Shown in pieces: positions 20,289 to 63,916 of a stretch of 64,000 nucleotides of DNA. The stretch lies in the NCBI GenBank assembly GCA_021904315.1, contig CM038908.1, positions 18,620,501 to 18,684,500 of the forward strand, in the 5' to 3' direction. Source of the DNA: Sphagnum magellanicum (Eukaryota > Streptophyta > Sphagnopsida > Sphagnales > Sphagnaceae). The notes under the pieces are model-generated. The model searched no databases, was not told where the DNA came from, and saw only the letters and a list, made by a program, of their open reading frames with translations. Position numbers and translations under genes: made by a program. Positions within the stretch are counted from its first letter, which is position 1. Each line of letters starts with the position of its first letter.

Positions 20289-21590
20289 CACTTAGTTCAG
20301 AAATGATTCTTTGAGTGAATTTTCATTATGCCTCCCCTTCCTGGGGGCCCCAATTCTTTTTTCTCATGTCCTTAAAAATGGCCAGAGTTGCACTGGCTGA
20401 AGGACACAAGAAAGCATATGTAAGACTGAATCAAGTGGATTGAGTGAGAGTGAAAGGCAGGGGACTTACTGGTGACAACTGAGAAAAATCTGCCATTTGT
20501 TACATGCTCAGCATGATGAGTGAGATATTGCTGCTGTCTTTGATGAAATTGCTTACTCTGAGGGTGCTCTCTGATGCCCTTGTTGTGCTGATCTTGGACA
20601 ACAAAACCCATCTGGCACCTTGAGAATTGTGTCTGTCTCTGATCCTCCACACCCTCCCATGGAATCAGCAGAATTAAGAAAAACATTTAGATTGATTGTG
20701 AGGAGGCAAAATTCTCAACTCTTGGGGAGCTACATGTACTAGTCAGAAAGACTGGCAGCCATATTTTCCTCATGTAAGGAATAATCTCTGCAAGGTGTTG
20801 CTGCATAAGATATCTTTTGCCATGATTTTGTAGCCTCCTCTGCTAATGGTCTCTGTAATCTGTAACAAGCTATGAAACTAAACAGTTATGCAAAGATGGT
20901 GGATCAAGCTTTGGTGTTGCATGCAAAGGAACCTATTATCAGAACTGTTTGCATGCAACTTCAAGAATGTACATTGTAAAATCTGGACTATGCTGCTTGA
21001 TGAAGCAGCATAACCTACTTTTCTTCTACAATGATGATGATGATCTGCATCTTGCTGCAAGAGCTGAATCAAGATAGTAAAATCTGTGCAACAGATTTTG
21101 ATTGTTCATATACAATTTTTGCTTGCCCACACATCAACCCTAAAACATCCATAACAACACCATCTTCAGGAGTATACACCAAGAATTCTAAATTTCCACC
21201 ACTGAGAATGCAGAATTTCTACAATTGAGGTATTACAAGGCTTTAGGGTTATGTTGTGTGGCTCACCTGAATGTTGAGATGGTTTCCAATAAAGAGACAT
21301 TCCATCAAAGAAGAAGATGATGATGAGCTTGATGAGAGACCGTCCATGCGGAGGAAATGTGGTCGCATCTGCACCACGCATCATTTATTTGTAGCCCACT
21401 TTTCAGAGATTTAGAGAGACAAAAAACCACACCTTAAAGTGTTGGGAAAATGCAACAAAAAGAAGAAAGACCCAGCAGGAGAAAATGCGCAATTGGCACT
21501 AGTGTCTAGTGGCATTTGTGGATAGAAAATCTGGAAGAAAGAAATAGGTACGCGGCTCCTGCTCCTCACTACTGTCAGATTGTTGAATAG

Positions 21591-44744: not shown

Positions 44745-45845
44745 TTTGATTATTTTAGCTTAAATTATTTTTGACTATTTTTTTTGTTTTAAATTATTTC
44801 ATTTTAGGTTACTTGCAATTATTATAATTTATTTTTTATTATTTTGAATTATTTCATCTTAGATTATTTTCAATTACATGAGGTTATTATTGGTATTTTT
44901 GATTATTGAAGGTTATTTCACTTTATGTTATTATTGATAATTTTAAGTCATTATAAGTTATTTCATCTTAAGTTATTGTTGTCTATTATAAATTATTTCA
45001 CCTTAGACTATTTTTGATAATCCTAAACAATTTTAATATATGATCATTGATTATTTTTTTATTGAGATTATTGATGGTTATTAATGGTTATTGTTACTTA
45101 TTATATTGATGATTATTGTTATCTATTCTATTGATGGTAATTAATGGTTATTATTATTTGTTCTATTGATGGTTATTAATGCTTATTTTATTAATGATTA
45201 TTAAAGGCTATTAGTAATTATTATATTGATGGTTATTTTATTAATGGCTATTGTTAACTATTCTATTAGTGGTTATTAATGATTATTGTATTACTAATTA
45301 TTGGTGAATATTAGTGGTTATTAATGGTTATTGTATTACTAACTACTGGTGAATATTTTATTAATGGTGGATATTAGTGATTATTAATGGTGATTGTATT
45401 ATTAACTATTGGTGAATATTCTATTGATGGATATTGTGGTTATTAATGACTATTATATTATTAACTATTGGTGAATATTCTATTGATGGATATTGGTGGT
45501 TATTAATGACTATTATATTATTAACTATTGGTGAATATTCTATTGATGGATATTGGTGGTTATTAATGTTATTATATTAGTGGTTATTCTATTAATGGCT
45601 TTTGGTGATTATTTCATTGTAAGCCATTGGTGGTTATTTTATTGGTGCCTATTGATGGTTGTTCTATTGGTGATTATTGGTGATTATTTTATTAATGGTC
45701 ATTGATGGTTATTATATTATAAATTATTATTGGTTATTATATATTATATTATGACTATTAATGATTATTCTATTATCAATTATTATTGGATATTATAGTA
45801 TCATAAACTATTGGTAGTTATTATTGTAAGGTATTTTAAATTATT
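44745..45845. repeat. 1.1-kb AT-rich minisatellite
   Basis: Built from permutations of TTATTAATGGTTATTGATGG-like words. The left part (to about 45060) is a TTATTT(C/T)A-type array. At 45421-45560 a unit of exactly 60 bp occurs in just over two near-identical copies (GGATATTGGTGGTTATTAAT..). Nearly free of C on the plus strand. No coding content. Confidence 0.85.
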
Positions 45846-49659: not shown

Positions 49660-52600
49660 TAGTGTGCAAACACCCAATATAACCACCCCTTAAACAATGC
49701 TTGAAAGAAACAACAAGGTTATAAATGTTAGGAAAATTTAGTTCATAGAACTTGTCCTTGATGTGTTTTAGCTACTCACCATTGAAAACCTCCACTATGC
49801 CATTGCTATAATCATCAAACAAATGCCTAACCAAGAAGGTCTTGTTAGCACTTAAGGAAATTGTTGATATTTTTACATCAAACATGCAATCCACTTCCTT
49901 TGCGATCAACCTTCAGTTTTGTCCATAGACTACTTACACTTTCCATCCCCAATAGGATGTTTGTGGACCCCAAGATGAATCTATTTTTCATGAAATAGAT
50001 TGGAGTCTATGCACAACATAACATAATAGATTCGTCCATTATAATATCTGACATAGAAAGGAGGAGCATGAAAAAATTTGCATCTAAGCAAAGAAGCCAA
50101 TAAGGTAAATGTCATTTGACCTACGAAACTTGGAAATGTCATTTGACCTATGAGCCAATTTGATGTGTCCTAGCATGAAGATGGTTTTTTGTGAATCATG
50201 AATCAACCTATCGCCAACAATGCGATAACAGTCACAACCAACCACCCAATGTTTCCCTTAAGAGAAGGTTGTAGGAATTTAGAACACATCACATGTTCCA
50301 TCTTAAGCATCATGACATCGTTCTTCAATGCGAAGTGGATTATGGGCATTGAAATAATTATATAGAGAACTATATTCATAAGAGCTTTCTCTTTGGGATG
50401 AATCTTGTGTTTCTCCATGACCTCCATTGTCTTGAATTTTTTGTTAATTTAAGCTTGTGGAATGCCTTACTTTAAAGATATTGCATCCAAGTCCACAAGG
50501 TTTAAAGGATTCAAATATAACTTGTCCCCTAGAAGGACATTTCATGATGAACCTCATGAAATGTGTGACAAAAACAATAATTGAACCACATCAAAACAGA
50601 AACAATTTTTGAATGATAGAAATTAAATGGATTAAAACATTAAAACATGTATGATAATTGAAAACAACGATGTGTTGACAAATGAAGGAGGACCCAAAAT
50701 CACATTCTTTACATTAAATTGTGGTTCAATAGACGTGTTAACATGAATATTTGTTCATAGTACGTGCTTTTAGAAGGAGATATTCAATTATGAAAAAAAA
50801 AAAGGTTTAACTTGAACATAAGTTGTTTGTTGAACAAATTTGTTGTGATTCTTGAAACAAACAATCACTGAAAATATCATATCAAAGCAATAAATGATTA
50901 TCATAAACAAACAATGAAATACATGATTTGTGGTTATTTAGACACATGTAATTGTTTTGCCATTTGGAACCATTATGCCATGTCATCAACCATGCCACAT
51001 GGCATTCCTAGGGCCAAAATTGCAACAAATTAAATGCCTCCAATATGTATAATATGTAGTTCCAAGCTTTAAATTACACACAAGTTTAAATACTTACCTA
51101 TTTAAATTGTTCACAAGATGGTTTAATTGCTCTCACTACATAATTAAAGATCTTTTTGACATCCTAAAATCAAGTGAAACTTGGAACTTGATGTGAGGGT
51201 TGAAGTAAGAATATAATGAAATATAAAAGTCCTATTGGCTAGAGGCCATATATTGGACACATGGCATGTAAATAAGAATCTCAACCAAAAATGACATTAA
51301 CCAACATTAAACTGAAGGGGTTGTAAAACACTCATAATTATTTGATTACCCATAAAATTCATGATAGGATTTGGAAACATATTTCTTGGTTCTTAAAAAT
51401 TTTCTAATTGTTTTGCCATTTATAAACATTCTAAAATCCTTAATCCCATGTACAAACAATCCAATAGAAATTAAATAACTTTCAAGAGGCCATTGAATGC
51501 AAAAATTAAATAATGACCTTATAAAATTATCTTTTTTGGGAGATGTTTATAACTATGTATGATTGAATGAATAGAGTTTAATTTCTTTCAATGAACATCT
51601 AGGTAGCAATCAAAGTAATCATATTCTAAGTTGAATTGTTCATTTGCACCATGTCACAATATCCATATTTAAAACATTCTTGCCAAACACCATGAAACTT
51701 GGACTTGTACCCATCTATAGAAATAAGAGAACTCAAGACTATAGATGTAGAGTTCCAAGCAATGGTTGGGTACGAAGCATCTTCTAACCACTTGTAAGAT
51801 TACAAGATATACAAAATGGTGATAAAAATGTTTTTCCTGAAATTTCAAAACAACTTGTGACAACCTCCTAAAAAGAATCCATGGCTAACACATTTAACAA
51901 ATCAAAATTATAGAACATTGTTTCATCAGTAGTGTGACTACCTCCTTGAATTTCAGGTTGATTACAAAATAATTGAATCAATCTTGTAATGAAAGTGGCT
52001 AGAGAACACTTTTGACGTTGAAGATGATGCATATGAAACTCCAAAACTTGCTTAAAATAGAGAGATGGATCAACTAGTGTTGGCTAATAGTATTACCACA
52101 AGCAAGGTGGAAAGGAGAGCTCCCCACCATGCTCGAAAGACATAATGACGAATTTGGAAGGAAACAATGGATTTGGAGGACACCACATCAGTGGCTACAC
52201 CAAACTCCACAATGGGTCCCAATGAAATGAACAACCCACCAATGGCACTCAACTAGGCTTAATATATTTGAAACAAAGTTTCACAACATCATTTAAAAGA
52301 ACTGGAAAACCTAACAAGAGAAGAATTTGGAATAAATATGGGTGAACAACTTTGTGTAAACAAAAAACTTCAAGGCTTTGATGCCCATGTAGATAATTAT
52401 TGTGTCATGAAAATGTTCATTGAACGACAATGCGTTTTTGAATAAAAATAGTAATGTGTTCATTATCAAGTGAATATAATATAGGTGGAGAAAACAACTA
52501 GTGGACAATTCATTGGTTTTATGAAATACAAGGATATTGGTCTGAAAATGGGCATCACATTCTAAGATTATTGACAAAAATGATAACCCAAATTTTGCAT

Positions 52601-54171
52601 TTTATTTCAATTATAGGAATACATGTAGTGCATGAAATAAGTGAGTGTTATGTATGTGGGATAAAATGAAAATGTTAAGGAGATGAAAAAAACAAAGGAG
52701 CTTAGAAGCAATGATCATATCAACATTTTGACCAATTAAAAAAATGATTACAAATGTTTTTAAAACACCATTATTAGGTTAGTTAGGCATCTAGAATTGA
52801 GGAAAAAATTTAATTACTTTTGAAAAACTTAATATGGTTTATAAAATAATAAGAAGAATTGGGTGCAAAAAAACAATAAAATCTCCTTTGAATTTTTTCA
52901 CTATGTGAAAACCTACAAATACGAAATATTTAACAATTATATCCTGGAACATAACATAGACTAAATATTTAAAAGATTGATGTGGTGAATATGGAACACT
53001 TGATTTCAAGTTCTGCTCTATAATGAATTGTATTTGATGACACTGAAATTGAATGGGAAAGCCCATAGAAGTCAAGATAAAACTCAAGTGAGCAACAAGT
53101 GATAATGATAGAAAATTAAAAATGCATTGATAAGTATGTGGGATTGTTGGAAACTGGGAGAACAATTAGAAACTTGGGGAATAAAACATAACTCAAATCG
53201 GGAAATATGTTGAAACATTTGGGACTATTGCTAGATACGTTGCACTTGTATTATGCAAGATTCTAAAAAATAAGTCACACGACATGCAATTGCAGGGTTC
53301 AAATATGAAAACACATAGAACAATTTTATGATGTTTATGAAACAATGGTGTATTGCATATAGAAATGGTAGTTAATTTGGAGAAATGTCCATTGATAGGA
53401 AGAACTTGATATGTTCAGTGGACTTGTAGTACATGAAAAGGAAATTGAAAGTCTTCGTAAAATCATCAATTTATTGAAGATTCTATATTTGCTTTGGTAA
53501 TTCATTAAAAAAATGTAGGTACATTCATCGAGTTAATAGATGATTAATGATATGATGTTTCAAAATAACTCCTTGAATTGTTTGAATCTAGGGATCAATA
53601 TTCCACTTTTAATTATATTTCAATTAACATCCGTATATTGAAATCATTCTTGATGTTTATCATCCTGACCTTGCACCAAAAATGGTTGTCATCTAGCCAA
53701 GATGGCCATTTGGATTATCAACAAGGGGGAGTTCAAAGAAAACATCACCATCAAAAGTAGATGGAATGTTAGGAGCATTTTCAATCCAAAATGTATCACA
53801 ATGTAATTATCTCGACTCCAAGGTGGCATGGAGGGCAAAAAACATTGCCTTAAAGCATTCCACGACATTGAGAACAAAAGGATGAACTTGAAGCAACATG
53901 TGGAAAGGATTTGAAGAGAACATGTTAAATTCAAAAGTGAAGAATTAAACAAGTGTACAAAGATTGGCAACATTCCATCCTCGTCGAAAAAATCACACAA
54001 GTTTATGAATGCAATTTTATGATTTAGAGTAACATCGATCAGTTTGTCGTTGCCCTGAAAATCATTCGCAATAAACGGAATAGTGCCTAGCATTAAGACC
54101 ATGTTTTGGGAATTTTTGGGGAGATTTTCGCCAATGATATTGAGTTTCCTGGTATTGAAAGTCCATTGCAA
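49660..54171 (-). other. Unrecognised degenerate coding stretch(es), minus strand
   Basis: The minus strand has several long open or nearly open protein-like stretches in AT-rich DNA. 54171-53692 is 160 codons, containing NMVLMLGTIPFIANDF and FFDEDGMLPIFVHLF. 53165-52842, 52252-52073 and 50427-50206 are also open. 49887-49660 reads MFDVKISTISLSANKTFLVR with one TAG, then continues in the same frame with LKHIKDKFYELNFPNIYNL. The amino-acid texture (balanced charges, stops rare on one strand only) suggests decayed coding sequence, probably from a large mobile element. I recognise no domain. The 54.1-kb stretch loosely recalls a methyltransferase-like strand order, but that is speculation. Confidence 0.35.
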
Positions 54172-54579
54172 TCCTTGTGTAATAGTAATTGAAGCTAGAA
54201 ATCAAACATTGCACATAAGCATTTTTAAGTTACATGTGGAATTCTAAACAATACCCATTTATTATCGACCAATATTGGAGGGTGTTAGATTGGTCATCAT
54301 AAATCTAATGTCCTTGAATAATGCAAGATCTTGTTTTTTGAAAAATCCATAATCTATTTTTATGACTTCACAATTATAAGAAGGACCATTTTTTCAAATA
54401 GGGTTTCAACTATTGTTTCATTCTTCTATTATACAAGTAATAACATCAATGTGAGATTGCAAAATGTATTTAGATATGAAATTAGAAGCCACAAAACCTA
54501 ACATTGATCCAAGATTGCTCTATTTGAGCTTGAAACATTAAACTGTGTAAAAAACATTTTTGAATGAATAGATTGAGAA

Positions 54580-57080
54580 AAAAAAATTGCTCTCAACCTC
54601 TTAGTTTCAACATTGAAAGTAGGAGGTTGAAAACACAAAAAAAGATTTCAACCATGTTGAGAGGTTTAAAAACAAAGCTTGGAAGTTCAAAGCATGGACA
54701 AGGCAAAACATTTTACGTTTAACCTCTTACTTATGGCACTAAAAGTAAAAGTCCAAAATCAATTTTTTTTCTTTTAGCCATGCATGGAACTCCAAGTGTA
54801 AAGCTTGGAAGCTCAAAGCATGGCTCATGCAAACTTTTTGGTTGTCAACTTCCTACTTTCAAAGCTGAGAGTAGGATGCTAAGAGCAAATTTTTTTCATT
54901 TTTGGCCATACCTAGAGCTCCAATGACAAATCTTGGAAGCTCAAAACATGGTTGAAACAAAAAAATTTGTGTTCAGCCTCCTATTTTTAGTTCCAAAAGT
55001 AGGAAGCCAAGACAAAACAAAATTGATTTAGGCCATGCATAAAACTCTAAGAATAAAACTTAAAAATTCAAAGCATGGCCAAGACAATTTTTTGTTTTTT
55101 GCCTCCTACTTTCAGCATTGAAACTAGGAGACCAAGAACAAAAACATTATTTTCAACCATGTCCAGATCTCCATGGAAAAAATTCGAGCAATTTTTTTTC
55201 GCACTTGCCCTCCTATTTTTGATGTCGAAAGTAGGAGGGCAAGAGCAAATGTTTTTGGTCTCAACCATGCCAAGGCTTTAAGCATGGAACTTGGAACCTT
55301 AAAACATGGTTGAAATAAGTTTTTTGCACTCCACTTACTACTTTCAATGCCAAAAGTAAGAGGCTAAACACAAAAACAATTGTTCCAACTTTATGCATGG
55401 AGATCTGGGCATGATTCAAAACAATTTTTTTGCTTTCAATCTTCTATTCTTGGCTCCAATAATAGGAGGTTGAAAGCAAAAAAAATTGTTTTGGCTACAA
55501 TTTGAGCTTTTAAGCTTTGTGCTTAGAGTTTTAGGCATGGCTGAGATTTTTTTTTTGGTCTTGGCCTCCTATTTTTGACATTGAAAGTAAGAGGTTGAAA
55601 GCAAATTTTTTTGTCTTGGCCACACTTTGAGTTTCTAAGCTTTGTGTTTATAGTTTTGAGCATGGCTGAAATCATTTTTTGGCACTCCACCTCCAAAAGT
55701 AAGAGGCCAAGACCAAAAGAAATATATTTTGGCCATGCTTAGAATTCCAAGCACAAAGTATAATAATTCAAAGTGTGGCCAAGGCAATTTTTTTTTGCTT
55801 TCAACCTCATACTTTTAACGTCAAGAATAGGAGACCGAAAGTAAAAAAATTGCTTTAAATCATGCCCAGATCTCCATGCACCACGAATTGTGGAAAAACT
55901 TGATAATTACATCTCATGCAAAATCAAGAAGATATTGAAAAGTTAGAACAATTTTTTTTTTAAGCCTCCTACTTTCGATGCCAAAAGTAGGAGGCCAAGA
56001 ATAAAAAAATTTAATCTTGGCCATGCTTAGAATTCCAAGCACAAAGCTTAGAAACTCAAAATGTGGCCAAGGTAATTTTTTTTCCTTTCAACCTTTCACT
56101 TTTGGCATCAAGAATAAGAGATTAGGAGCAAAAAAATTGTTTTGAACCATGCCCAAATCTCCATGCACAAAATTGGAACAATTTTTTTGTGTTTGACCTC
56201 CTACTTTTGGTGCCAAAAGTAGGAGGTCAAAAGCAGAAAATTCAATCTCGGCCATGACTAGAACTCCAAGCATAAAACTTAGAAACTTGAAATGTGGCCA
56301 AAGCAATTTTTTTGCTTTCACCCTCCTACTTTCAACATTGAAAATAGGAAACCAAAAGCAAATAAATTACTTTGAACCATGCCCAAATCTCCATGCACAG
56401 AATTGGAGTAATTTTTTTTGTGTTTGGCCTCCTACATTTGATGCCAAAAGTAGGAGGCCAAGAGTAGAAAAAATTGCTCTCAGACATGCCTAGAGCCCCA
56501 AGTAAAAAATTCTAATCGGCATCTAACTTTCACCAAAAGTAGAAGGTCGAGAATAGAAAAATTTGTTCTTGGACATGCCTAGAGCTCCAAGTAGAAAATT
56601 ATAATCAACATCTAACTTTTGACACCAAAAATGGAGGTCAAGGAGAAAAAAAAGAAAAAAAGAAAAAAAAATTAAAAGCTTTTTTTCTCTTCAGCATTCA
56701 ACTTTCAACGGCCTCCAACTTTTGGCACTAAAAGTTGGAGGTCAAGGAGGGGGAAAAAAATCAATTATTTTCCTCCCCAGCTTGCAGCTTTTGGTGGCAT
56801 GCAACTTTCAACATTGAAAGTTGGAGCTCGAAGACAAAATTAATTAATTAAAATAAATGAAAAAATTCAAAGATTTTTTTCCTCCCTAGCCTCAACTTTT
56901 GGTGCCAAAGGTTAGAGGCAATATCAAATTTTTTTTTTATGCCATGCATGAAGCTCCTTGCTTTGAGCTTTGAAATTGATGGAAGGCAATACAAAAATAG
57001 ACAATTTGTTCCCAACCTTCAACATTGGGTTCTAAAATTTAGAGGCCAAAAGCAAGAAACTTACTTTCAACCCTTCTTCA
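54580..57080. repeat. Array of about 20 diverged palindromic units
   Basis: A head-to-tail array with spacing of about 80-165 bp, mostly near 115. Each full unit has two self-complementary segments. Palindrome A is exemplified at 56192-56231: arms TTTGACCTCCTACTTTTGG and CCAAAAGTAGGAGGTCAAA flank a two-base centre. Palindrome B is exemplified at 54776-54825: AGCCATGC.. pairs with ..GCATGGCT, with an inner CCAAG/CTTGG pair. A-type segments occur near 54617, 54735, 54860, 54991, 55103, 55212, 55330, 55440, 55565, 55690, 55803, 55966, 56090, 56197, 56321, 56428 and, more worn, to about 57050. Poly-T and poly-A spacers separate them. Complementarity between arms is kept in many copies despite differences between copies. 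No protein-coding role is apparent. Confidence 0.88.
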
Positions 57081-57369
57081 AATTTTTAACTTTGGGGTTG
57101 AAGTTTGATAATGGGCATGAGGAATTTTTTTCTTCTCTTCATAAATTTTCTTTTCCAAATACATTTCATTTCCAAATCTTTAGATTTGTAAATATTTCCT
57201 TTTGTTTAAAATATACTTTGATTATAAATTCTTACATGTGGCAGTTTCAAGGTTAGCCCCATCATTTGACGATTCACAAAATATTTTAACAATTTGTTCT
57301 TAAATTCTTGTGGCACCTAAGCTTGCCTACCTAGAATTACATAGAGTTGTTTTTGAGGTTTCATAAATT

Positions 57370-57839
57370 TTGTTGATAGTTGGTTGCCAATTCTTTTATC
57401 AACAAATCGTTGAATGAACTTGTGAAAAAATATTTTGGAATAAGCTTCTTCAAACTTGCATGTTCTTTGAAAAAATCCATGGCATGTGTAAACATCACCC
57501 AATTGCAATTTTCCATATCTTCCTTCGAAATATTTACAATTTGTTTCAGTAATGCAAAATTTTTTCTATCTATCTTTGCATTTGCCCATCACCATGTCGC
57601 CCATTCATTTATTTTCTCAATTGCCACTACTTTGTCAATTGCCAATTTCCATTTTGTTCCCCATTTTCTAATTTCCAACAAATGTTGAAAGGGAAATAAC
57701 CAAATGTCATATCTTGGATATTCCCAAGGTTTTGCTTTCATTCACATATTCTATCTAGTATGTTGGAGATTAATGTATATTCAATCATCAATTCCAAGGT
57801 GTTTAGTGTGAAAATTGGTGTCAATTTTCCTCTTGCCAT
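57370..57839 (-). pseudogene. Unrecognised broken ORF, minus strand
   Basis: From an ATG at 57839-57837 the minus strand reads MARGKLTPIFTLNTLELMIE. It shifts frame near 57740 and continues with MKAKPWEYPRYDIWLFPF, then RKWGTKWKLAIDKVVAIEKI. After one TGA near 57588 it continues in frame to about 57370 with NFALLKQIVNISKEDM, FTHAMDFFKEHASLKKLIPK and FNDLLIKELATNYQQN. The total is about 155 residues with one frameshift and one stop. It is rich in Lys, Trp and aromatic residues, helical in texture, and has no membrane segment or known motif. It lies immediately right of the palindromic array and has the same strand as the broken stretches left of it, so both may belong to one element. Confidence 0.5.
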
Positions 57840-58625
57840 TGTAAAATAAAGGTTTTAGGATTGCAAGCATGATATAGAGGTAAAAACGGTGCAACTAGGC
57901 AATATTAATGGAAAAAATGCAAACTGTTGTATAGATTTGGCAAATTAGTAGTAGAAGAAGAAAAATGCAATTTGATTCTATAAATAACAAGAATGGTGCT
58001 AGATGCAAGAGGTTGAAAGAATGAATGAAAATAAAAAATAACTTGAAATGGTGTAGACAATGTAAACTATCATGGGCTACCTCATATTGTTTCTCTTCCT
58101 AATGGGCACATGCCTATTGGTGGTGAACAAGGAATGTGTGGATTGACATATACTTCTTGGTGGGTCAATTGGATTTAATTTAACATTCTATATGGTTTGG
58201 ATGCTACAAAACTTGAATATATTTCATATCAAAGAAATATGAAATATAACTTTGAAATGTGATTTGAGTATTTCATGTGTCAAATTGTTTTTGAAAGACA
58301 CCAACATAAATTGTTTCCACCTTGTTTCTTTTGTTCAATAATTTGCAAAAATAGCGTTTTGTGCCAACGTTCAGAATAAAATTCATCCATTTTTTCATCC
58401 ATAAAAATCATTCATCCATGGACATGTGGTAAAATATTCCTCCATGTCAACAAATATTTTTTCTTATGTGTCAAAAAATATTCTTCTAATATTTTGTCAA
58501 CATAGACATAATATTTTAAAAAAGATTCAGTCTTGCCCATGCGCTCATACGTTCATACTCGCTTGTTTATGTTTATGTTCACAAGCTCGTGTACTAGCAT
58601 CCTTGCTACTATGTGTAACAACTTT
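57840..58625. other. AT-rich intergenic DNA
   Basis: Nothing gene-like seen on either strand. Confidence 0.55.
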
Positions 58626-60973: not shown

Positions 60974-60979
60974 TAGAAA

Positions 60980-63916
60980 ATGGACGCAGCTTGTGATTAC
61001 TGTGAACAGGGTCGAGCGACAGTCTATTGTAGAGCAGACTCGGCGCGTCTTTGTTTGTCTTGTGACCGTCACGTACACAGCGCCAACGCGCTCTCGTTAC
61101 GGCATGTGAGAACGCTTCTTTGCGACGGATGCAATCTTCGACCTGCAGTGGTTCGATGTCCCGTGGAAAAATTAGCCTTCTGCCAGAGCTGTGACTGGGA
61201 TAGTCATGGGAACTCTCCCATCGCGTCGCAGCATCGCCGTCATGCGTTTGACTGTTTCTCCGGCTGTCCATCGGCGGCGGAGCTTGGTAGCCTTTGGGGT
61301 TGTGACTTGGTGCCCACTAGTGTCGAGTCTCGTGGTGTGTCCACCGCCACTAGAGCAGCAGCTCCTCGAAATCTCCAAGGATTCGTCAACAGCAACGGCA
61401 GTAGCTATGGAGGTCCTGGAAAAGTTGCAACGTTTGCATCCATGTCTGCAGCTGCAGCTGCTGGAGGACCTCCGCTCCTTGCCAAGGTCTGTTCTATGCT
61501 CTCAAAGTCCATGGTCCTTTCAGATCAGGAGTGTGTTCTGTTGCAGGAGAAACCCTGGGAGCTCCCATTTCTGGCTCACGTTTGGGTTTTTACATCTGAG
61601 GAGAGACTAACCTTAGAATCACAGAAACCCCTCTTCTTCTTCTTCCAATTCTCAACCTGGAGAGCTTGCTGTGTTAAGGTCTCTCATTATAGCAAGCTTC
61701 CAATGGACCAGCACAAGCAAGAGAGGCAAGCTGGACAAGCCCTAGCACAGTCTAGGGTCTGATCAGCACCTCGGAGTGTCCTTGTTATCTATCAAAGGGA
61801 GGTAGATGTTCAGACACCTTCGTTTGGGTTTTCACATCTGAGGAGAGACTAACTTAGAATCACAGAAATCCTTCATCGTCTTCTTCTTCCAATCCTCAAC
61901 CTGGAGAGCTTGCTGTAGTAAGGTCTCTCACCATAGCAACCTTCAGATGGACCACCACAAGCAAGAGAGACGAGCTGCACAAACCCTAGCACAGCCTAGG
62001 GTTTGATCAGCTCCACATAGTGTCCTTGTTATCTATTAAAGGGAGATAGATATTCAGAAACCTTCATTTGGGTTCTCACATCTGAGGAGAGACTAACCTA
62101 GAGTCACAGAAATCCTTCTTCCAATTCTCAACCTGGAGAGCTTGCCGTACTAAGCCTCTCATCATAGCAACCTTCAGATAGACCAGCACAAGCAAGAGAG
62201 ACAAGCTGCACAAACCCTAACACTGTCTAAGGTTTTATCAGCTCCAGAGAGTGTCCTCATTATCAAAGGGAGATAGATGTTCAGAAACTTTCATTTGGGT
62301 TGTCACATCTGAGGAGAGACTAACCTACAATCACAGAAGTCTTTCTTCTTCCACTTCTCAACCTGGAGAACTTGCTGTATTAAGCCCCTCATCATAACAA
62401 CCTTCAGATGACCAGCAAAAGCAAGAGAGACATGCTTCACAAACCCTAGCACAGCAGAGGGTTTGATAAGCTCCGCAGAGTGTCCTTGTTATCAAAGTGA
62501 GATAGATGTTCAGAAATGTTCAGTTGGGTTGTCACATCTGAGGAGAGACTAACCTAGAATCACAGAAATCCTTCTTCTTTCAATTCTCAACCTGGAGAGT
62601 TTTTGCTGTATTAATTTTTGCTGTTCAGAAATCTTTGAAAAAATCTCAAGATCTGTTGTTTGTTTCTGCAGCATCCAGTAGTGTGTAATGTTTTACTAAT
62701 ACTGAAGCTCCCCCCACCCCCCCAAAAAAAATCATCCATCCTCTCTTGCACAAGATTTTCAGTGTCAACTAGGGTTCCTTGCACAAGAGCATCATCCTCT
62801 CTTCAAGGCAGGTCCTTGCTCAAGAGCATCATCCTCTCTTCCAGATAATGGGAAGTTTGCACAGAGAGAATTTTGGTGGCCGTTTGGTTTCTTTCCATTT
62901 CCTTTTTTGTGGCAAGAGGCCTTTCTGTTTAGTGATGGGGAGGCGTGGTGGTGGTGTGGGGCCACAGAGTCCTGTGCCGACAACAGGCCCAGTGGTGATG
63001 GGGAAAGAAGGAGGAGGAGGACAAGGAAGTAAACAACAATCCAAAGAAGCAGTAGTACAGCAGCTTCACAAACTGCAAGTTCTAGACCCACAGGTGCAGA
63101 TGCAGGAGGTGCCTATGTCATTGTCGTTGCACTTATCAAAGAAACCTCCAAGCTCTTTGCAGTCTTCTGCTTCAGAGCCTTTGACAAGAGCATCATGTGT
63201 ATCTCAGATACAGGAGCAAGAGCAACAGCCAAAGGCATGTACAAATCAACAGCCACACTCAAATCATCATCAACAACAACAACAACAACAGGCAGCAAAT
63301 CTGCAGAATTCACGATCTTTGGACTCTCAGATATTAGCTGTGTCTGAAACACTGCAGCTGAAAACTGAAGTTTGCAGTGATGGTCTCATGCAAGGAGGTG
63401 ATGCTCTCTGGCATTCCAGCTCCTGTCAGGTGCAATTCTTCTGGACGTTCAAAAAATTTCTTCTTCAAGATTCAGGAGCATTGCATCTTCAATACCAGTA
63501 GCAGGACATATGGTAGATCTAGTGTTTCAGTAGAACCATGAAACATATACAGTTATCATCATGTTGTTGCAGATTTGTGAATTGAAGGAAAGCTTATGCA
63601 ATGTGGCTCATGAGCATTCGTATCTGATGTTATTGTGCGTGCTTGTGGTGGACAGCTATGGGGACAAAATATGCAGGATCTTGGAATTTGTGGAGGAGAA
63701 GGGGATCCATGTGAGGGTTTCAGCATGGCAGACATTGATCTTTCATTCGATAACTACAAGGACATTTTCTCAAGCACACAAGGTCTTTCATCTTGGTCCT
63801 CCAATGACATAGAGGCTGCTGCCAGCTGCACACCCATGGGCCAAGACACTGTTGGCGAGAACCAGTGTGAACATATGCAAAGCATCCCAGAGTTGGAGCT
63901 TCTTGAAGTGAACAAT
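60980..63916 (+). CDS. CONSTANS-like double B-box protein (COL9/COL10-like), 3' end beyond window
   Basis: Zinc-finger transcriptional regulator of the BBX/COL family, expected in the nucleus in light, clock or flowering-type control. Exon 1 starts at 60980. B-box 1 has C5, C8, C17, D20, C25, C28, H33 and H42; B-box 2 has C48, C51, C60, C68, C71 and H76. [18 protein letters not shown] follows, characteristic of the COL9/10 branch. A donor at 61487 ends exon 1 in phase 0 (169 aa). Exon 2 ends at 63429; its start is either 62845 (phase 0) or 62933 if exon 1 ends at 61412. It is rich in Gln and Ser, with a CAA repeat. Exon 3 is 63656-63916 (phase 0), with [20 protein letters not shown] and [15 protein letters not shown], another family block. 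The CCT domain must lie beyond the right edge. The first intron is filled with a satellite. Confidence 0.85.
61575..62650. repeat. Five-copy tandem repeat of about 235 bp in intron 1 of the B-box gene
   Basis: The motif TTTGGGTT..CACATCTGAGGAG starts at 61582, 61823, 62067, 62294 and 62523, giving periods of 241, 244, 227 and 229. Units also share CTCAACCTGGAGAGCTTGC, AAACCCTAGCACAG followed by CTAGGGTTT (a small inverted repeat) and GTGTCCTTGTTATC. The first unit lies partly in an open frame continuing from exon 1, which makes a misleading 260-codon ORF ending at 61762. Confidence 0.9.
62773..62846. repeat. Two-copy 40-bp repeat at the presumed exon 2 acceptor
   Basis: CAAGAGCATCATCCTCTCTT occurs at 62782 and 62821. 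The second copy ends in CCAG at 62841-62844, a candidate splice acceptor. The duplication makes the exon 2 start ambiguous. Confidence 0.7.

Follow-up and report, generated by a model that had tools for sequence, protein, structure and literature searches.

The array of palindromes at positions 54580–57080 of the window (a stretch of 64,000 nucleotides of the Sphagnum magellanicum genome, C2:18620501-18684500) is probably the internal tandem block of an old, dispersed and decaying transposable element. Within an ancestral element, a palindromic founder, consisting of a palindrome A together with a segment B, would have been amplified to about 20 units; the element would then have carried the block to at least nine places, where it would since have decayed without detectable constraint, largely via transitions at former CpG sites. 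The units were presumably made by tandem or by fold-back copying.

An iterated profile (E under 0.01) detects 22 palindrome A units on the + strand between 54587 and 57062, each of which also matches on the opposite strand. The core of palindrome A is CCTCCTACTTT...AAAGTAGGAGG and its outer arms are a run of T and a run of A; by profile and alignment, a unit measures up to about 66 bp when these T/A-rich outer arms are included. The A-to-A spacing is 103–133 bp in 14 of the 21 intervals, 80–101 bp in five (towards the right end of the array), and 136 and 162 bp in the remaining two. The A units are separated by long B segments with inverted ends (e.g., 56250–56299, GGCCATG ... TGTGGCC) or by shorter B segments. 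The sequence-only reading of this DNA had described about 20 units made of two alternating palindromes. These are real, with B present between many of the A units: the inverted repeat A that it placed at 56192–56231 has 19-nt core arms which are fully complementary around 2 nt, and there is indeed an inverted repeat B at 54776–54825. The last four units (56709–57062) are of the AACTTT/AAAGTT type and differ from the main units by a two-sided change from T-A to A-T. The region 55073–56489 contains an inverted copy within the array (55073–55600 against 55959–56489, 72%).

A strict definition of a palindrome (arms of at least 10, at most one mismatch, arm GC of at least 30%) gives 11 palindromes in the array; 60 dinucleotide shuffles contain 0.95 on average and never more than 4, which excludes a chance origin. 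The longest arm is 20 in the array and 13 in the shuffles. Counted in bins of 2.5 kb, the array bin contains nine strict palindromes and the other bins of the window at most three.

The genome (438,994,042 bases in 31 contigs) contains at least ten blocks of this array in nine copies of one element: the window copy, one copy each on C20, C16 and C8, a second place on C2 (C2b, 30 kb from the window copy), three copies on C19, and one on C1 which has two blocks and is counted as a single interrupted copy from the order of the matches. The ten blocks measure about 0.6–2.5 kb and contain 127 A units in total, according to the profile. The comparison of the surroundings (10 kb around the places, and further flanks for five of them) shows that element sequence, 75–89% identical among the matches listed, adjoins every block on at least one side, and that the array sits at the same place in these dispersed copies. 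The whole-genome search thus shows that the unit is not unique to the window but lies inside an element with dispersed copies. Judged by eye, the order of the B types is much alike in the window, C2b and C16. The array is therefore older than the copies.

The element body that carries the array extends from 50645 to 57239 (+ strand). It is flanked by the segments 49675–50641 and 57244–58605 (both + strand), which belong to high-copy families (300 and 299 first-look candidates, respectively, 40 scored in each case), while the body next to the array belongs to a smaller family (38 candidates). Sequence matching the window extends over about 10.7 kb in the C20 copy, an insert included. Relative to C16, C20, C2b and C8, the body of the window copy is inverted with respect to its own flanks. 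At one breakpoint of this 6.6-kb inversion there is a 6-bp match that is itself palindromic (ACATGT); the other breakpoint lacks about 330 bp of the C20 sequence. The inversion leaves the main reading unaffected.

Other features of the copies and of the window were observed along the way. The three C19 copies (L014, L015 and L016) are mostly 91–95% identical among the matches listed; the similarity extends several kb into their surroundings, as if they had been duplicated as a segment. The C2b copy has about 820 bp inserted at the place of window 51144–51147, with a 4-bp overlap at the edges, and a stretch 87% identical to this insert lies near the C20 copy (C20 local 20684–21499). The window also contains, at 44780–45800, a very AT-rich tandem array (20% GC) in which several periods are nested; C1 has a related array (L012:1693–2909, pieces 66–72% identical) that directly adjoins a hairpin-array block. 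A 244-bp tandem repeat (61581–62614, 4.4 copies) overlaps the end of a B-box zinc-finger frame (60977–61759). The open frames of the window match plant-type genes: an amino-acid transporter, a Rieske protein, a syntaxin, a Ras-type GTPase and the B-box protein.

The sequence-only reading had also noted that the arms of a copy often still match although the copies differ, and had raised the question of compensatory change. The statistics on the arms are based on 100 units from seven aligned loci, obtained from the 127 A units by dropping nine that score under 20 in the orientation of the element and 18 near-duplicates from C19b and C19c. In this set, 75.3% of the cells are paired, compared to 73.8% in shuffles (1 of 500 as high), and the raw covariation score is 0.215 compared to 0.191 (0 of 500). 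This excess was set aside because kinship among the units inflates an unstratified count.

The comparison of orthologous units gives a different picture. Over 168 orthologous pairs from the seven loci, with 200 permutations stratified by column pair and by locus pair, a change on both sides is seen in 232 cases for 232.5 expected (sd 9.9), and a Watson-Crick pair has become a different Watson-Crick pair in 96 cases for 94.8 expected (sd 8.6). A disjoint subset of 26 pairs from three locus pairs (400 permutations) gives 37 for 39.3 and 15 for 15.2, respectively. Nearly all arm substitutions between orthologous units are independent, with one position excepted, and the reading as compensatory RNA fails. 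The stratified measure is noisy, since an excess appears at a wrong register (slide −2), with 230 for 198.3 and 45 for 31.9 (0 of 200 permutations for both), and 39 for 31.4 in the disjoint pairs (7 of 400). An unstratified ortholog count (232 for 163 at the true register, 230 for 175 at slide −2) was superseded because the columns differ in rate.

Tested position by position in the 100 units, one of the 21 arm positions shows a strong association and 18 show none at p 0.05; the other two have nominal p values of 0.037 and 0.031, uncorrected, among 21 tests. The strong association is that of columns 24–43, where 78 units have T-A, 13 have A-T, three have one letter switched and six are of another kind. 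The A-T form is that of the 13 units of the tail type (AACTTT/AAAGTT), which are present in four of the seven aligned loci. Joint change of the arms is thus real at this position, while the rest of the 21 positions are not strongly associated; the compensatory base-pair change between copies that a functional structured RNA would show is otherwise not seen. The sequence-only reading had itself named three results that would speak against it; two of them, independent substitutions and a transposon context, are largely what is found.

The similarity of the arms within a copy appears to have another origin. The ten letters at the centre of the palindrome have the skeleton YYRRYRYYRR in 63 units, and the next class has eight. 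At the three centre sites where a perfect palindrome would have CpG, the letters are CG, TG, CA or TA in 86 of 95, 81 of 98 and 97 of 100 units. The same holds further out, for 92 of 100 units at columns 50–51 and for 75 of the 94 units listed at columns 16–17. Transitions make up 86% of the differences between orthologous units in the centre and 84% in the core arms. The observed/expected ratio of CpG is lower in the array (0.17) than in the element body (0.29) or at 18–33 kb of the window (0.34). If a perfect ancestor had CpG at mirrored sites, deamination on either strand would turn these into TG or CA independently in each arm, and the counts at columns 30–37 (28, 24, 20 and 17) are those of independence. 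We infer that a perfect ancestral palindrome decayed by deamination, and that the matching arms mainly reflect C-to-T and G-to-A changes at its mirrored CpG sites. Each arm independently takes one of two decayed states at such a site, and the arms match about half the time. The array illustrates clearly, in a natural sequence, that palindromic repeats can give the impression of compensatory change when no selection acts.

The arms are no better kept than the element. The divergence of the core arms between the window and five copies is 0.127–0.201, which is not below that of the body (0.118–0.149 for two stretches in four copies); the 395 bp directly before the array diverge by 0.072–0.110 in five copies. 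The comparison covers dead copies, and it says little on selection during the mobile phase. The B zones (0.185–0.274) and the palindrome centres (0.265–0.500, both for the window against five copies) diverge faster than the body, so that a single neutral rate does not fit all the parts.

The hairpins themselves could suggest that the array is a source of small RNAs, whose putative transcripts would fold into a row of hairpins and then be diced, like the hairpin siRNA and miRNA loci derived from transposable elements. Such miRNA hairpins have been described in plants (PMC3086885). Single strands of the array are indeed predicted to fold as a row of hairpins, as first proposed: 16 of the 20 A units that were folded (out of 22) have z values of −2 or lower relative to shuffles, the other four being between −0.31 and −1.60. 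The best fold energy is −35 kcal/mol. The best-folding palindrome is that at 56183–56240 (z −9.80), which contains the perfect 19-nt arms, and an imperfect palindrome of 60 bp including the T and A runs (55425–55484) reaches −9.00. However, compensatory change is confined to one arm position, RNAalifold finds no consensus structure in the alignment of the A units, and the Rfam scan of the window gives no match at gathering scores; ARAGORN also returns none. Selection for pairing in transcripts of the element strand would predict more G-T than A-C mismatches, but there are 214 G-T and 309 A-C. A surplus of A-C would mean G-U on the opposite strand, and the two counts are nearly equal at columns 20–32 (127 and 144). 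A small-RNA source therefore seems very unlikely, and a cluster of structured RNAs is an unlikely annotation for the array. The array could also be a stand-alone satellite, or result from repeated insertions of a MITE-like unit, and lie beside the element by chance: it is tandem and palindromic, and its units end in A/T runs. This reading is disfavoured, to the point of being extremely improbable, because each of the ten blocks has sequence of this one element next to it on one side or both. Moreover, a genome search with a 361-bp array query gave 10 first-look candidates, all scored and all among these ten blocks, even if diverged arrays could escape such a query.

Diverged relatives of the element bear on the idea that the palindromes are a cis-acting module, in which putative dyad sites for a dimeric protein (a transposase or a host factor) would be selected only in the active lineage and decay in each dead copy. 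A palindromes are present in every array block found. A copy on C17 (L045), whose body is only 68% identical to that of the window, keeps four A-type palindromes detected by the profile, about 50 bp apart, between which B is not seen. The best of them is GGCCTTCAACTTTTGATGTCAAAAGTTGAAGGCC, with arms GGCCTTCAAC...GTTGAAGGCC, and both of its core differences from the main type are mirrored. This diverged block carries the A-T form of the two-sided change, and the AACTTT/AAAGTT form is itself common to the 13 tail-type units of four aligned loci. On the other hand, the copies compared show no constraint, and a copy on C9 that follows the body as far as 54195 lacks A units in the next 3.07 kb; the array was either gained or lost within the family, or this copy is broken there. 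The array side of five further body-positive regions (L041–L045) was searched at E up to 0.1: A units are present in L045 and absent from the other four. Of these four, L044 alone can be followed along the window as far as the edge of the array, which leaves the other three with little weight. We consider the cis-acting module unlikely. Short repeats of a GGAGTTGCATGCGAC-like motif were also seen near the C17 array (L045:1760–1850).

Several observations count against purely neutral decay: the two-sided change at columns 24–43, the raw excess of covariation, the two nominal positions, and the closeness of the two arms of a unit in the window. In the window, the distances are 0.409 between left arms, 0.353 between right arms, 0.389 between left and right arms of different units, and 0.347 between the arms of the same unit. 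This last value is matched by 33 of 2000 permutations in the window, compared to 112–1370 of 2000 in the six other arrays. Since these distances are similar, either arm could almost stand in for the other, and the array amounts to a half-unit of about 62 bp repeated with its orientation alternating. It might be a concatemer of such half-units, resulting from the rolling copying of a hairpin-closed (dumbbell) DNA or from repeated fold-back synthesis, with new unit families born with both arms from one; we consider this possible but not likely. Differences that are mirrored between unit families, and independent within them, are what one would expect if one arm of each new unit had been copied from the other. 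Such births of unit families would have left the T-A/A-T switch, as well as the mirrored changes of the C17 palindrome, as their footprints, with neutral decay in the intervals. A perfect palindrome duplicated in tandem would explain the data almost equally well. If the fold-back reading is true, the array would show how arrays of palindromes get built inside transposons.

The class of the element is suggested by its terminus. The flanking segment 57244–58605 ends at ...TACTAGCATCCTTG (reverse complement CAAGGATGCTAGTA). The high-copy relatives were sampled at this terminus (12 copies) and in L028. Judged by eye, the shared sequence of the 12 other copies ends at ...GGACTAGCATCCTT, close to it or at a variant of it, and what lies beyond is unrelated; the shared part of L039 ends a few bases sooner. 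The terminus is CAAGGATG in the window and C2b, CAGGGATG in C16 and GAGGGATG in C20, the last of which is not YARNG. Transposons of the hAT superfamily have ends of the form YARNG and 8-bp target-site duplications. The terminus CARGGATG presumably resembles this form, and the element looks like a DNA transposon by its terminus; the likeness to hAT is limited to this one end. A Pfam search of open frames in L009, L014, L028 and the window, 16 in all and each of them only a fragment, gave no hAT family; the ten that come from the element region showed no match to a transposase. One of them (L014:3127–3489) gave a weak match, below the cut-off (E 7.6e-4), to DUF4216, a family known from CACTA elements. 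This match was set aside because it precedes L014:3615, the point from which copies outside C19 align. Six fragments of the high-copy relative L028 gave a chromodomain match above the cut-off and a weak integrase match, which we read as a probable nested LTR element. In Sphagnum divinum, CACTA elements are reported to be the most abundant named repeat (PMC9946827).

No description of the array was found in open-licence papers on palindromic, dyad, foldback and internal tandem repeats in transposons and on Sphagnum. It is established that tandem arrays inside transposons are able to seed satellites (PMC4079207; PMC12628747) and that some satellites have dyad symmetry (PMC13081366). Tetris/TIR-220 of Drosophila virilis (PMC4079207) and the MITE and Helitron arrays (PMC12628747) resemble the present case in that a tandem block is carried and spread by a transposable element. 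In contrast to them, the units described here are palindromic and of two alternating kinds, and stand-alone arrays were not found. TmSat2 of Tribolium madens (PMC13081366) has inverted subunits, theoretical hairpins or cruciforms and inverted sub-blocks, as does the present array, but dyad satellites of this type form megabase (peri)centromeric arrays, whereas the blocks found here measure about 0.6–2.5 kb and lie inside an element. The Foldback-type element Tm1 is also rich in inverted repeats (PMC3169594), but these are composite terminal inverted repeats, while the palindromes are internal here.
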